A model generated the notes under the pieces. The model saw nothing but the letters and a program-made list of their open reading frames with translations. It made no database searches and was not told the DNA's origin. Shown piece by piece: positions 1 through 5,306 of a stretch of DNA of 5,306 nt (its first letter is position 1; each line of letters starts with the position of its first letter). Both the position numbers and the translations under genes were made by a program. The DNA is from Candidatus Roizmanbacteria bacterium RIFCSPLOWO2_01_FULL_44_13 (lineage in GTDB: Bacteria; Patescibacteriota; Microgenomatia; UBA1406; GWC2-37-13): contig MGAT01000019.1 of assembly GCA_001789855.1 (NCBI GenBank), positions 1 to 5,306 of the forward strand, written 5' to 3'.

Positions 1-146
1 GGAAAAGGGGCGACCTATTATTCGATCGCCGTCGTTTTGGACCAGCTGGTCGAGGCCTGTTTCTCCGACGCGAGGAAAAGGGGCGACCTATTATTCGATC
101 GCCGTCGTTTTGGACCAGCTGGTCGAGGCCTGTTTCTCCGACGCGA
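1..146. repeat. Exact 73-bp direct tandem duplication inside ldh
   Basis: Positions 1-73 and 74-146 are identical base for base; the match ends at 147 (A instead of G). The unit length is not a multiple of three, so the two copies are in different frames and the dehydrogenase is interrupted. The hexamer GAAAAG occurs at 2-7, 75-80 and 145-150, giving a short homology at the junctions that could support slippage. The first copy begins exactly at the first base of the window, so the true left boundary is unseen. That position also makes a contig-end assembly artefact a serious alternative. Confidence 0.95.
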
Positions 147-1696: not shown

Positions 1697-1720
1697 TATT
1701 GGTTGCAATTTCAAAATAAA

Positions 1721-1798
1721 AAACCCTCAATACCGTATTTCTCGCGAACCGCTGCGCTTGCGGACTAAGTTCGCTCGGAAATAGGTATCTGCGGGTTT
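1721..1798 (-). repeat. Structured palindromic repeat, copy 1 (between dedA and uvrB)
   Basis: A 78-bp imperfect palindrome. Paired arms from outside in: 1721-1726 with 1793-1798 (AAACCC/GGGTTT), 1730-1734 with 1784-1788 (ATACC/GGTAT), 1736-1741 with 1778-1783, and 1744-1749 with 1769-1774 (GCGAAC/GTTCGC). A small apical stem is possible at 1750-1752/1760-1762. G1735 is a single unpaired base, and on the minus strand a GA/GA tandem mismatch lies between the last two arms. The minus strand is taken as the sense of the element because there it ends in a T-rich tail (TTTTTTATTTT, 1713-1723), as copy 2 does on the plus strand. It ends 7 bases before the uvrB ATG, leaving no Shine-Dalgarno sequence. 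Role unknown: it could be a terminator, a leader structure or a dispersed repeat. Confidence 0.8.
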
Positions 1799-1805
1799 AA
1801 GTAAT

Positions 1806-3803
1806 ATGAATTTTAAACTTGTTTCATCATTCAAGCCGACAGGTGACCAGCCGCAGGCGATAAAGGGTCTAATCGGCGGCCTAAAAGACAACCTAAAAAA
1901 CCAGGTTTTAATCGGCGTTACCGGGTCCGGGAAGACCTTTACCATGGCCAATGTCATCAAGGAAACGGGTTTGCCGACATTGGTGATTTCCCACAACAAA
2001 ACCCTAGCAGGACAGCTCTATCAAGAATTCCGCGATTTTTTTCCGGAGAACGCGGTCTCTTACTTCGTTTCTTATTATGACTACTACCAGCCGGAGGCCT
2101 ACATCCCGACGACCGATACCTATATCGAAAAAGAGGCCCAGATCAACGAACTGATCGATAAATTGCGTTTACAGTCGACGACCAATATTTTGACCCGCGC
2201 CGACGTCGTTGTCGTCGCCTCGGTTTCCTGCATTTATAACATTGGGTCCCCAAAGGAATACGGCAAGTCCATTCTGGAACTCGTTGTTGGAAACCCGGTC
2301 GATCCGAAAAGCATCTTCCGCCGCCTGGTCGAGCTCCAGTACGAAAGGAGCGAGTTTGACTTTAAGAGGGGGACATTCCGGGTGAGGGGCGACAGGATTG
2401 ACATCTATCCGGCTTATGAGGACAACGGCTACCGGATAATATTGAAAAATGGCGAAGTCGGAAAAATAGAAAAATTCGAACCTGTCTCCGGAAAAATTAT
2501 TAGCATCAAAGATGCAGCCAGATTAATAATCTATCCGGCCAAGCACTACATGATGGACAGAAAAGTTTTTCAGTCGGCGGAAGTACAAATCCGAGATGAT
2601 TTAAAAAAAGAGTCGGAGGCTCTAAAAAAACAGGGAAAACTTTTGGAGGCGGAACGGCTGATCCGCCGTGTCAACTACGACCTGGAAATGATCAAAGAAA
2701 TCGGCTATGTGACCGGAATCGAAAACTACTCACGATATTTTGACGGCAGGGGAATAGGAGACCCTCCGTACACTTTGCTCGATTACTTCAAGGAAGCCTA
2801 CGGTACTGATTGGCTGTTGATTCTCGACGAATCCCACATGACGGTTCCACAACTGCGGGGGATGTATAACGGCGACTTCTCGAGAAAAAAAACTCTCATA
2901 GATTTTGGTTTCCGGTTGAAGGCTGCGTATGACAACCGGCCTCTGAAGTTCGAAGAATTTTATCCGAGCGCCTCGAAAATAATTTATGTCTCCGCGACGC
3001 CGGACGAATGGGAAATAAAAAGATCCAAGGTGGTCGAGCAGCTGATAAGGCCGACGGGGATCATCGACCCGGAAGTCATAATCAAGCCGGCCGAAGGAGA
3101 AGTCCAGGATCTCATCAAGGAAATCGAGATAAGAGCCCAAAAGAACCAAAAGGTCTTGGTGACGACGTTGACGAAAAAAACCGCCGAAGACTTGACGGGT
3201 TATCTCAAAGAAAGAAAAATCAGAGCGTCTTATCTCCATTCCGACATCCAGACCCTTGAGAGGTCCGACATCCTCGACAATCTGCGAAAAGGCGAATTTG
3301 ACGTTTTGATCGGAGTCAATTTGCTTCGCGAAGGGTTGGATTTGCCCGAAGTCTCACTGGTCGCAATACTCGACGCCGACCAGGAGGGGTTCCTGCGCTC
3401 CTATACGTCGCTCATCCAGACGATGGGCCGGGCAGCGAGAAACATTACGGGCCAGGTAATTGTCTATGCCGACAGGATTACTCGATCGATAAAGTTGGCG
3501 GTTGACGAAATCGAACGAAGAAGAAAGTATCAAGCCGAGTACAACAAAAAACATCGTATTACCCCGAAAACCATTGTCAAACCGGTTAGGGAGAAAATTG
3601 TCGGTAGGGAGGATACGCCGATGATTTTTGACCAGAAAGTTGACGACTACTTCTTGGAGAATATAAAAAGTGATGGGTTGACGCCTTTTGACAAAAAAAA
3701 GGTGATAAAAAAATTAGAGCTGGAGATGAAGAGACAGGCGGAGGATCTCAATTTTGAACTAGCCATTAAGATTAGAGAAAAGATAAAAGAGATTAAAAAT
3801 TAA
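1806..3803 (+). CDS. uvrB: UvrABC system protein B (excinuclease subunit, damage-verifying helicase)
   Basis: UvrB is loaded by UvrA at damaged DNA, opens the strands with a short ATP-driven helicase motion, verifies the lesion and then recruits the nuclease UvrC. All 665 residues are present (E. coli: 673). Motifs in order: FKPTGDQPQAI (9-19), Walker A GVTGSGKT (37-44), the aromatic beta-hairpin YYDYYQPEAY (90-99) that clamps one DNA strand, Walker B-like DESH (341-344), VSATP (395-399), LLREGLDLPEVSL, helicase motif VI QTMGRAARN (538-546), YADRITRSI, and a C-terminal UVR domain from about 632 to 664 that binds UvrA and UvrC. No catalytic motif is missing. The ATG at 1806 gives the expected N-terminus, MNFKLVSSFKPTGDQ. 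No Shine-Dalgarno sequence is visible; a structured repeat ends 7 bases upstream, and an inverted copy begins just after the stop. uvrA follows on the same strand after 85 bp. LexA control is not evident. Confidence 0.98.
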   Translation: MNFKLVSSFKPTGDQPQAIKGLIGGLKDNLKNQVLIGVTGSGKTFTMANVIKETGLPTLVISHNKTLAGQLYQEFRDFFPENAVSYFVSYYDYYQPEAYIPTTDTYIEKEAQINELIDKLRLQSTTNILTRADVVVVASVSCIYNIGSPKEYGKSILELVVGNPVDPKSIFRRLVELQYERSEFDFKRGTFRVRGDRIDIYPAYEDNGYRIILKNGEVGKIEKFEPVSGKIISIKDAARLIIYPAKHYMMDRKVFQSAEVQIRDDLKKESEALKKQGKLLEAERLIRRVNYDLEMIKEIGYVTGIENYSRYFDGRGIGDPPYTLLDYFKEAYGTDWLLILDESHMTVPQLRGMYNGDFSRKKTLIDFGFRLKAAYDNRPLKFEEFYPSASKIIYVSATPDEWEIKRSKVVEQLIRPTGIIDPEVIIKPAEGEVQDLIKEIEIRAQKNQKVLVTTLTKKTAEDLTGYLKERKIRASYLHSDIQTLERSDILDNLRKGEFDVLIGVNLLREGLDLPEVSLVAILDADQEGFLRSYTSLIQTMGRAARNITGQVIVYADRITRSIKLAVDEIERRRKYQAEYNKKHRITPKTIVKPVREKIVGREDTPMIFDQKVDDYFLENIKSDGLTPFDKKKVIKKLELEMKRQAEDLNFELAIKIREKIKEIKN

Positions 3804-3804
3804 T

Positions 3805-3888
3805 AAAAAACGCAGATACCTATTTTGAGGGAACGTTCGTTTGCAAGCGCAGCGGTTCCCGAAAAATACGGTATCGAGTTTTATTTTT
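3805..3888 (+). repeat. Structured palindromic repeat, copy 2 (between uvrB and uvrA), inverted relative to copy 1
   Basis: Fills the whole uvrB-uvrA gap. Paired arms: 3815-3820 with 3870-3875 (GATACC/GGTATC), 3821-3826 with 3863-3868 (TATTTT/AAAATA), and 3829-3834 with 3855-3860 (GGGAAC/GTTCCC), plus an apical hairpin at 3838-3841/3846-3849. C3869 is bulged, and G3827-A3828 faces G3861-A3862 as a symmetric tandem G-A mismatch. An A-run (3805-3810) precedes it and TTTTATTTTT (3879-3888) follows, directly abutting the uvrA ATG. Against the reverse complement of copy 1, about 59 of 69 aligned columns agree (hand count). Two arm positions have changed on both sides so that pairing is kept. It may terminate uvrB transcription, act as a leader element of uvrA, or be a member of a dispersed repeat family. 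Confidence 0.85.
3815..3888 (+). terminator. Possible intrinsic terminator or attenuator between uvrB and uvrA
   Basis: The palindrome of copy 2 is followed within a few bases by TTTTATTTTT, and it begins just after the uvrB stop, as an intrinsic terminator would. The A-run at 3805-3810 gives the opposite strand a similar tail, so it could work in both directions. Against a simple terminator: the T-tract ends at the uvrA start codon, leaving no room for a separate uvrA promoter downstream. The stem is also long and AT-rich at its base, unlike a compact GC-rich terminator. Conditional read-through is an alternative. Confidence 0.4.
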
Positions 3889-5306
3889 ATGGATTTTATT
3901 AAAATCAAGGGCGCAAGGCAACACAACCTAAAAAATATTTCGGTCGACATTCCAAAAAATAAATTCGTCGTCTTTACGGGGATATCTGGATCGGGCAAGT
4001 CCAGCCTGGCGTTCGACACAATCTACGCCGAGGGACAGCGGCGTTACGTGGAATCGCTCTCCGCTTACGCGAGGCAATTTTTGGGAATCATGGACAAGCC
4101 GGACGTCGACTCGATCGACGGCCTGTCGCCTTCGATTTCGATCGACCAGAAAACCACTTCCCACAACCCGCGCTCGACCGTCGGCACAGTCACCGAGGTC
4201 TATGATTTCTTCCGCCTTCTCTACGCAAGAATCGGCCACCCCCACTGCCCGAACTGCGGCCGGGAAATCAGCAAGATGTCTTTGGACGAAATCGTCGACA
4301 AAATTTTTGGAGAAATTATAAAACAGGTTGCCGCCGATAAAATCAAACCCCACCAATTTACAATTCTTTCCCCAGTCGTGAGGGCCAAGAAAGGCGAGTT
4401 TAAGGACCTGTTTGACAACCTCCGCGGCAAAGGCTTCACCAAGGTAAAAATTGACGGCAAAGAAAAAAACTTGGACGAGGAAATAGACCTTATTAAAACC
4501 AACAAGCATACGATCGAGGTCGTGATAGACCAGTTAAACACCAGTCACAAAGAATTAAAACAGAAAGTATTCTCTGCCAATTTTAAATCCCGCCTGACAA
4601 CCGCTGTCGAGCAATCGCTCAATTTATCGGACGGATTGGTGATACTAAAAGCCGGGAATAAAGAACATTTATATTCGGAAAAATTTTCCTGCCCGGTCTG
4701 CAATATATCCCTGCCCGAGCTCGAGCCAAGAATATTTTCTTTCAATTCGCCGATTGGAGCGTGTGAAAAATGCCGGGGAATCGGGACGATTTTTGCCGTC
4801 GACCGCGATTTGATTTTGAATAAAAACTTGAGCGTTCTCGAAGGAGGGATTCTACCTTTCAATAAATTATTTTTTCACGAGACTTGGTACGTCAGGTTGA
4901 TAAAAACCGCCCTCGAGGAAGAAAGGATAAATCTGAACGCGCCGATAGGGCAGCTGGCCGATAAACAAATCAAGACCATCCTCGACGGGACGGACAAAGT
5001 TTATCGCGTTCACGGGGTGAACCGCTACGGCAAACCGACAGCCATCTTTGAGAAATTCGACGGCATCGTTGCCGAGCTCGAGCGCCGTTATTACAACGCT
5101 TCGGGCGACTGGGCTATGGCAGAAATCCAAAAGTATATGAGGGAAGAAATTTGCCCAGAGTGCCGCGGCGCGAAATTAAAAAAAGAAGTCTTAGCGGTAA
5201 CGGTCGACAACATCAACATCTCAAAATTTTCCGACAAATCGATTGACTTTATTTTAAATTATGTCACCGACCGCCTGCCCAAAATAGTCAAGCCCTACGA
5301 AGAAGT
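3889..5306 (+). CDS. uvrA: UvrABC system protein A, N-terminal half (3' truncated by window end)
   Basis: UvrA is the ATPase that scans DNA for distortions as a dimer and hands the site to UvrB. The window encodes 472 residues of about 940, with no stop before the edge. Visible in order: MDFIKIKGARQHNLKNI at the start, Walker A GISGSGKSS (about 30-38), EGQRRYVESLSAYARQFL, SPSISIDQKTTSHNPRSTVGT, a first Cys pair HCPNCG (Cys120, Cys123), and the UvrB-binding domain with ILSPVVRAKKGEF and KKHTIEVV-like NKHTIEVVIDQ. A zinc module follows, C-x2-C-x20-C-x2-C (268, 271, 292, 295), around LELEPRIFSFNSP-like sequence. Next is ERRYYNASGDWA, then a further Cys pair CPECRG (422, 425). The first ABC signature motif and the whole second ATPase half lie beyond the edge. 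The ATG at 3889 aligns with the E. coli start; no Shine-Dalgarno sequence precedes it, only a T-tract. Same strand as uvrB, 85 bp downstream, so co-transcription depends on passing the intervening palindrome. Confidence 0.98.
   Translation, partial: MDFIKIKGARQHNLKNISVDIPKNKFVVFTGISGSGKSSLAFDTIYAEGQRRYVESLSAYARQFLGIMDKPDVDSIDGLSPSISIDQKTTSHNPRSTVGTVTEVYDFFRLLYARIGHPHCPNCGREISKMSLDEIVDKIFGEIIKQVAADKIKPHQFTILSPVVRAKKGEFKDLFDNLRGKGFTKVKIDGKEKNLDEEIDLIKTNKHTIEVVIDQLNTSHKELKQKVFSANFKSRLTTAVEQSLNLSDGLVILKAGNKEHLYSEKFSCPVCNISLPELEPRIFSFNSPIGACEKCRGIGTIFAVDRDLILNKNLSVLEGGILPFNKLFFHETWYVRLIKTALEEERINLNAPIGQLADKQIKTILDGTDKVYRVHGVNRYGKPTAIFEKFDGIVAELERRYYNASGDWAMAEIQKYMREEICPECRGAKLKKEVLAVTVDNINISKFSDKSIDFILNYVTDRLPKIVKPYEE

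Follow-up and report, generated by a model that had tools for sequence, protein, structure and literature searches.

A dispersed, gene-less palindromic repeat around uvrB in Candidatus Roizmanbacteria, likely mobile as folded single-stranded DNA

The two hairpins that flank uvrB in a 5,306-nt stretch of a Candidatus Roizmanbacteria draft genome (contig MGAT01000019.1; the whole stretch is referred to as the window) are, with reasonable if not strong confidence, copies of a gene-less palindromic repeat that is dispersed between genes and in-frame inside genes of one bacterial order, is oriented by strand composition, and is probably mobilised at replication forks in the form of folded single-stranded DNA, with a RAYT-like Y1 transposase predicted to do the cutting and joining in trans. 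The best reading of the family's identity is that of a new, non-autonomous palindrome resembling REP and RPE elements, and single-strand mobile DNA is the likely mechanism. The initial annotation of the window had described the element from the two copies around uvrB; it is a dispersed repeat rather than a feature of uvrB.

In the window the element measures about 83 nt and forms an imperfect hairpin, present as two inverted copies around uvrB. The scores below refer to R1, a covariance model built on the 21 full-length copies of the window's own genome, with four masked, short-apex, half and deletion copies left out.

1718..1800, minus strand: copy 1 of the palindromic element (R1, 81.9 bits)
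1793..1798, minus strand: copy 1 outer stem, 5' arm AAACCC, partner 1721-1726 (fold and alignment)
1790..1792, minus strand: copy 1 GNA/GA internal loop, GCA side, with the GA side at 1727-1728 (fold and alignment)
1778..1789, minus strand: copy 1 core stem, 5' arm GATACC-TATTTC (fold and alignment)
1729-1741, minus strand: copy 1 core stem, 3' arm, with a bulged C at 1735 (fold and alignment)
1721..1726, minus strand: copy 1 outer stem, 3' arm GGGTTT (fold and alignment)
1806..3803, plus strand: uvrB, 665 aa (open reading frame; Pfam UvrB_inter, UvrB, UVR; homologues)
3804..3886, plus strand: copy 2 of the palindromic element (R1, 104.3 bits)
3806..3811, plus strand: copy 2 outer stem, 5' arm AAAAAC, opposite GTTTTA at 3878-3883 (fold and alignment)
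3812..3814, plus strand: copy 2 GNA/GA internal loop, GCA side, with the GA side at 3876-3877 (fold and alignment)
3815..3826, plus strand: copy 2 core stem, 5' arm GATACC-TATTTT (fold and alignment)
3827..3862, plus strand: copy 2 GA/GA tandem mismatch (3827-3828, 3861-3862), GGGAAC/GTTCCC stem and variable apex (fold and alignment)
3863-3875, plus strand: copy 2 core stem, 3' arm, with a bulged C at 3869 (fold and alignment)
3889..5306, plus strand: uvrA, 5' part, cut by the window end (open reading frame; Pfam UvrA_inter, UvrA_DNA-bind)

Copy 1 ends 5 nt before the start of uvrB and lies antisense to it, and copy 2 constitutes the uvrB-uvrA spacer, with the uvrB stop ending at 3803 and the uvrA ATG at 3889. 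The inverted, structured arrangement around uvrB that had been proposed was confirmed by a repeat search of the window (arms 1711-1805 and 3799-3893, 75% complementary without gaps) and by a similarity search in which the two copies were 81% alike over query positions 1-88. Both copies fold into a rod with the same order of parts, namely outer stem, GCA/GA loop, GATACC/GGTAT(C or T), bulged C, TATTTY/RAAATA, GA/GA mismatch, GNGAAC/GTTCNC and apex; in copy 2 the outermost position of the outer stem is an unpaired A-A. The compensating changes named at the outset are present (GCGAAC/GTTCGC and TATTTC/GAAATA in copy 1 where copy 2 has GGGAAC/GTTCCC and TATTTT/AAAATA, and an outer pair that is G-T in the first copy but G-C in the second), as is the bulged C in both copies; the GA/GA tandem mismatch described for both holds for copy 2 but not for copy 1, where an extra C yields CGA/GA. 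Compared with dinucleotide shuffles, folding gave z scores of -4.3 and -5.8 for the two copies, with none of 200 shuffles equally good. The apex of copy 1 aligns with that of an own-genome copy in L019 and not with that of copy 2, and the two are therefore no fresh duplication of each other. At the contig start, window positions 1-146 hold a perfect 73-bp tandem duplication that is probably an assembly end artefact.

The window's own genome, a 467-kb draft that is 81% complete, carries 21 full-length copies and four others (a copy containing masked bases, a copy whose apex is short and replaced, a half copy and a 44-nt deletion form). With R1, 23 sense-strand places scored at least 57 bits in this genome, accompanied by weaker reverse-strand echoes, and many contigs have copies; the covariance search suggested for the element thus returned additional copies both here and in relatives. 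Among the 21 copies 94.9% of 648 pair cells pair, two-sided cells number 31 against 8.1 in shuffles, and pairs changed on both sides 11 against 4.3. These genome-wide copies and their pairing contradict a chance or recently duplicated palindrome. The 44-nt deletion form (L031:980-1023, 24 bits) keeps GCA, GATACC, TACGGTATC and GA; in the shortened forms at L029:999-1068 and L031:980-1023, the hairpin foot is kept and the apex is lost or replaced.

A second covariance model, R2, was built on 98 relatives' copies drawn from 87 loci, 10 reverse-strand duplicates having been taken out of an earlier alignment. In these copies 94.4% of pair cells pair and two-sided changes amount to 409, where shuffles give 111 and slid controls no more than 94, in an alignment fitted to the model's structure and hence biased towards it. 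Most arm changes are compensated across copies, so that pairing is maintained as had been claimed. On the strand called sense, wobble pairs exceed A-C mismatches (84 versus 22), which identifies it as the folding strand and bears out its earlier designation. The loop at the foot reads G in 94 copies, N, and A in 88, opposite G in 66 and A in 95; the N of the foot GNAG is A in 77, C in 10, T in 10 and G in 1. Near the foot, 85 of the 98 copies have an additional base on their 3' arm (C in 66). Higher in the rod, some subfamilies have paired TT/AA in place of GA/GA. Element length ranges from 55 to 135 nt, and apices vary between subfamilies and recur inside one genome, for example in 12 of 15 copies of genome G040. 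Altogether, the GNA/GA loop and the extra foot base persist while apex and outer stem vary.

The outer stem is copy-specific over about 6 bp, complementary beyond within-genome flank shuffles, weaker further out, and 8 bp long in G040. REPs inside palindromic sequences are on record in the available text of PMC3733652, and template switching during replication can create compensated palindromes, as the accessible part of PMC8794818 describes; a palindromic target, template switching and selection are alternative sources of this stem. The same documented mechanism bears on the family as a whole: template switching at forks might make or perfect palindromes without a dedicated enzyme, compensation being mutational rather than selected. 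The outer stem, copy-specific yet complementary over about 6 bp and weakly beyond, speaks for this, and the strand-asymmetric orientation described below could fit it too. However, the GNA/GA loop and the one-arm extra base persist in most of the 98 diverged copies, although a perfecting process would erase both, and the process accounts for stems but not for how a single sequence came to occupy many loci, which makes it an improbable explanation overall. The earlier proposal that pairing is under selection is upheld as to the pairing, which is maintained, but compensation alone is insufficient to establish selection, as template switching also yields it (PMC8794818, as far as its accessible text goes).

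The family is common in one order of tiny bacteria and rare elsewhere. R1 matched 23 of 57 genomes searched among relatives, the own genome counted, and R2 found the family in 58 of 83 genomes of the same order, with a maximum of 25 matches per genome. At class level the element was seen in 19 of 187 genomes, 8 of them outside the order, absence being weak evidence at only 23 candidates scored per genome; phylum-wide it was seen in 2 of 379 genomes including the own genome, i.e. in 1 of 378 others, at a reduced sensitivity (11 candidates scored per genome) that makes absence weak evidence there as well. A strict pattern scan of named genomes gave nine stretches, seven from Roizmanbacteria and one from Gottesmanbacteria, which we take to be members of Microgenomatia, and one from a Patescibacteria bin; the same pattern had no exact match in viral contigs, where phage carriage was sought. 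The view that the element belongs to no recognised family agrees with an Rfam 15 covariance search of the window, in which the only matches were two weak ones away from the element (E 0.91 and 2.4). Among the matches listed for literature on Patescibacteria, CPR, Roizmanbacteria or Microgenomates with palindromes or MITEs, the text available from those sources contained no such element.

Comparison of equivalent loci reveals filled and unfilled sites. In the uvrB-uvrA spacer the element is absent from all 24 relatives with a uvrA motif within 400 nt downstream (30 uvrB loci fetched). Upstream of uvrB, copies also occur in G007, G013 and G008 (L124), antisense as in the window and with other apices; L274, L279, L124 and window positions 1718-1800 represent four genomes with a copy on the same strand just before uvrB and with different apices, like the tgt sites. 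By eye, the uvrB-uvrA spacers of G025 (L284), G020 (L285) and G040 (L296) hold other palindromic repeats. In tgt, 17 copies were found in 11 of 30 genomes, every one antisense to the gene, with no match in the other 19; they fall at three sites among the rows visible in the alignment (an insert list for all 30, residues for about half), and at least one further row, G006, looks by eye as if it had a degenerate copy missed by the model. The tgt genes of G009 (L183) and G002 (L181) also hold a second short repeat, which encodes LPAGRQ-like residues and sits within or next to the copies of the element. The shared sites upstream of uvrB and in the tgt loops could be hotspots, or else long-standing insertions whose apices have turned over, as opposed to fresh jumps. 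The copies look mobile; no exact before/after pair was seen in close strains.

Insertion into reading frames is a recurrent property of the family. With a criterion of an open frame of at least 200 codons and at least 50 codons on each side, 26 of 119 copies are in-frame (33 of 119 under a looser criterion), in hosts that include tgt, dprA, acetyl-CoA synthetase, tatD and miaA. When Pfam was applied to ten host frames holding 12 of these 26 copies, nine had domain matches on both sides of the insert, representing TGT, DprA, acetyl-CoA synthetase-like, TatD, MFS, IPP transferase, radical SAM, P-type ATPase and peptidase M16 proteins; the one in-frame copy of the own genome (L019) lies in a PMT_2-type protein with a domain match on one side only. 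In dprA of G010, G017 and G029 the copies stand between LYVRG and AIVGTR, and in G017 two adjoining copies of opposite orientation share one open frame (L230:1330-1509). The solved TGT structure 6ygl runs gapless at two of the three insert sites, passing from 115 to 117 and from 296 to 297 where the G010 protein adds 45 and 30 residues. In the TGT model (mean pLDDT 80.7) the segments below 50 are 99-147, 241-244 and 362-380, the first extending past its insert and the other two spanning part of theirs. An open frame across a sequence of element size arises in 97% of shuffles, so that openness alone is no sign of coding design; element length modulo 3 (1/2/0) is distributed 15/6/5 in genes and 35/35/23 elsewhere, a difference that is suggestive only.

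Orientation follows strand composition. Of 118 copies, not all of them independent since flanks overlap in clusters, 96 have flanks whose sense strand is rich in C, and the bias is present where genes run with the sense strand (17 of 25), against it (39 of 42) or in mixed directions (40 of 51); third codon positions agree in 87 of 117. A genome-clustered fit that accounts for gene direction gives an intercept of -0.054 (95% interval -0.073 to -0.037), and in the stretches sampled, genes do not clearly prefer either strand. Adjacent copies on one contig have the same strand in 60 cases and differ in 16, in tables that list a part of the matches. The idea of an integron-like cassette array, which came from such same-strand clusters, was discarded on the one cluster read, G008:C1, which has full-length genes between the copies. 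As read from tables, 7 of 7 copies switch orientation with skew and replichore in the one-contig genome G065, and 16 of 18 agree with the skew in G010; in the own genome 15 of 21 agree with strand composition, and of the window's two copies the first agrees while the second does not, being in the minority orientation.

The skew of G065 changes sign at about 80-90 kb and again at about 620-640 kb, two points separated by roughly half a chromosome; a search near these flips for DnaA and other origin motifs found none. The 23S rRNA gene at about 631 kb and the 16S gene at about 696 kb, both on the plus strand, lie near the plus-to-minus flip, and a C-rich rRNA strand is reported for some Microgenomatia in the available portion of PMC7143001. 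These two points would tentatively make the C-rich strand leading and the sense strand the lagging-strand template in G065. The G065:C1 stretches (L303-L322, L343-L351) display a two-replichore skew, and the rRNA placement hints at a skew of inverted sign in this lineage.

Strand-linked orientation is what single-strand movement at forks predicts; neither an RNA role nor cut and paste predicts it. Read as a functional structured RNA, such as a processing site, a terminator or a stabiliser of the 3' UTR, whose duplicates were retained for what they do in the transcript, the element would be expected to show the covariation seen in the 98 copies and the one-strand excess of G-U (84) over A-C (22), and in same-direction gene pairs 38 of 56 copies indeed lie no more than 10 nt from the upstream stop codon and 37 of 56 nearer to that stop than to the next start. 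Yet beside same-direction genes 19 copies are co-oriented and 37 antisense, so that 37 of 56 transcripts would bear the other strand, divergent genes flank 16 copies, the in-gene copies divide into 13 with and 13 against the gene, orientation tracks strand composition, and Rfam is without a match at the element; an RNA function is therefore unlikely. Between the structured RNA and the single-stranded DNA hairpin that the initial annotation had left side by side, the balance of in-gene orientations and the agreement with strand composition in all gene-direction classes favour the latter.

For folded single-stranded DNA, a RAYT-like Y1 enzyme acting on the element is the likely partner, a prediction that is correlational. 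Y1_Tnp matches occur in 60 of the 83 genomes of the order (59 above the Pfam cut-off), in frames of which many have about 210-255 aa and others are short and IS200-like; the window's own genome, an 81% complete draft, yielded no match. Five of five long-type Y1 proteins match the NCBIfam RAYT model with scores of 40-72 bits, which is under its curated cut-off of 80, and by eye the order's Y1 proteins look similar to subclass 2.1 as set out in the accessible part of PMC6006769. Element and Y1 counts correlate across 82 genomes (Spearman 0.42, p 1e-4), with shared ancestry ignored and all Y1_Tnp matches counted, including the short IS200-like ones; both are present in 47 genomes, the element only in 10, Y1 only in 13 and neither in 12. 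Among 20 Y1 loci fetched (E at most 1), some shortened by contig ends, none had an element near the Y1 gene. A conventional MITE, mobilised by a DDE transposon through double-strand cut and paste, would likewise be short, gene-less, bounded by an inverted repeat and both intergenic and intragenic, but it is very unlikely, given that no target-site duplication was detected (mean longest direct repeat at the ends 3.39 versus 3.54 shuffled), that DDE_Tnp_1 (PF01609, the one DDE family tested) occurs in 15 of 83 genomes, is uncorrelated with element number (rho -0.01) and was not found in the own genome, and that cut and paste is not expected, on reasoning, to give replication-strand orientation.

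Under the preferred reading of a single-strand mobile palindrome, the mobile form would be the folded sense strand, replication forks would supply it, RAYT-like Y1 transposases would cut and join it in trans, and in-gene copies may persist by being translatable and located in loops. A more far-reaching version, put forward tentatively and held to be doubtful, is that this fork-borne family is native to Microgenomatia and is the missing substrate of RAYT-like Y1 transposases that lack a known repeat partner, subclass 2.1 being an example, inserting routinely in-frame in housekeeping proteins and swapping its apex at fixed sites with a constant foot. To our knowledge, how gene-less, protein-coding palindromes spread has been an open question since Rickettsia. 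The family described here, which spans an order, has both filled and unfilled sites and combines a fixed foot with an exchangeable apex and a clear orientation by strand, opens the mechanism of spread to testing. It suggests, too, that insertions recur in loops of housekeeping enzymes in tiny genomes. Furthermore, protein predictions and structure models from these bacteria include repeat-derived segments.

Among known systems, the REP/RAYT pair offers a close comparison: the element is an imperfect, bulged hairpin, intergenic and at times in genes, near stop codons and within small palindromes, as REPs are in the portions of PMC3733652 and PMC6006769 available. It has G-N-A-G at its 5' foot, with GTAG in 10 of 15 G040 copies, and RAYT-like genes are present in its order. 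It differs in its length of 55-135 nt, against 20-40 nt for REPs, in a foot that is mostly GAAG or GCAG, so that only the T minority fits the GTAG or GTGG that REPs carry 0-2 nt 5' of the foot, in the outer stem below this tag, and at the 20 Y1 loci examined, where no copy accompanies the gene, unlike the copy within 1 kb of a tnpA-REP.

With the IS200/IS605 elements, recognition of folded ends would be shared, and so is the lack of a target-site duplication. The strand orientation of the element fits their lagging-strand targeting, described in the available text of PMC6006769, but the element is without a transposase gene, and a single hairpin is the whole of it. Inverted repeats in functional protein genes are also known from the coding palindromes of Nematomorpha mitochondria; there, however, both arms encode conserved protein, whereas the present element is extra sequence between conserved parts (PMC6649704, in its accessible part). 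With the Rickettsia RPEs, compared by description, the element shares the occurrence of multi-copy palindromes in-frame in unrelated housekeeping genes, as given in the available parts of PMC10969869 and PMC3733652; it differs in lacking from its consensus the CGTC end tag of R. conorii (PMC3733652, likewise in part), in belonging to another phylum, in having internal loops conserved order-wide, and in being oriented by strand composition.
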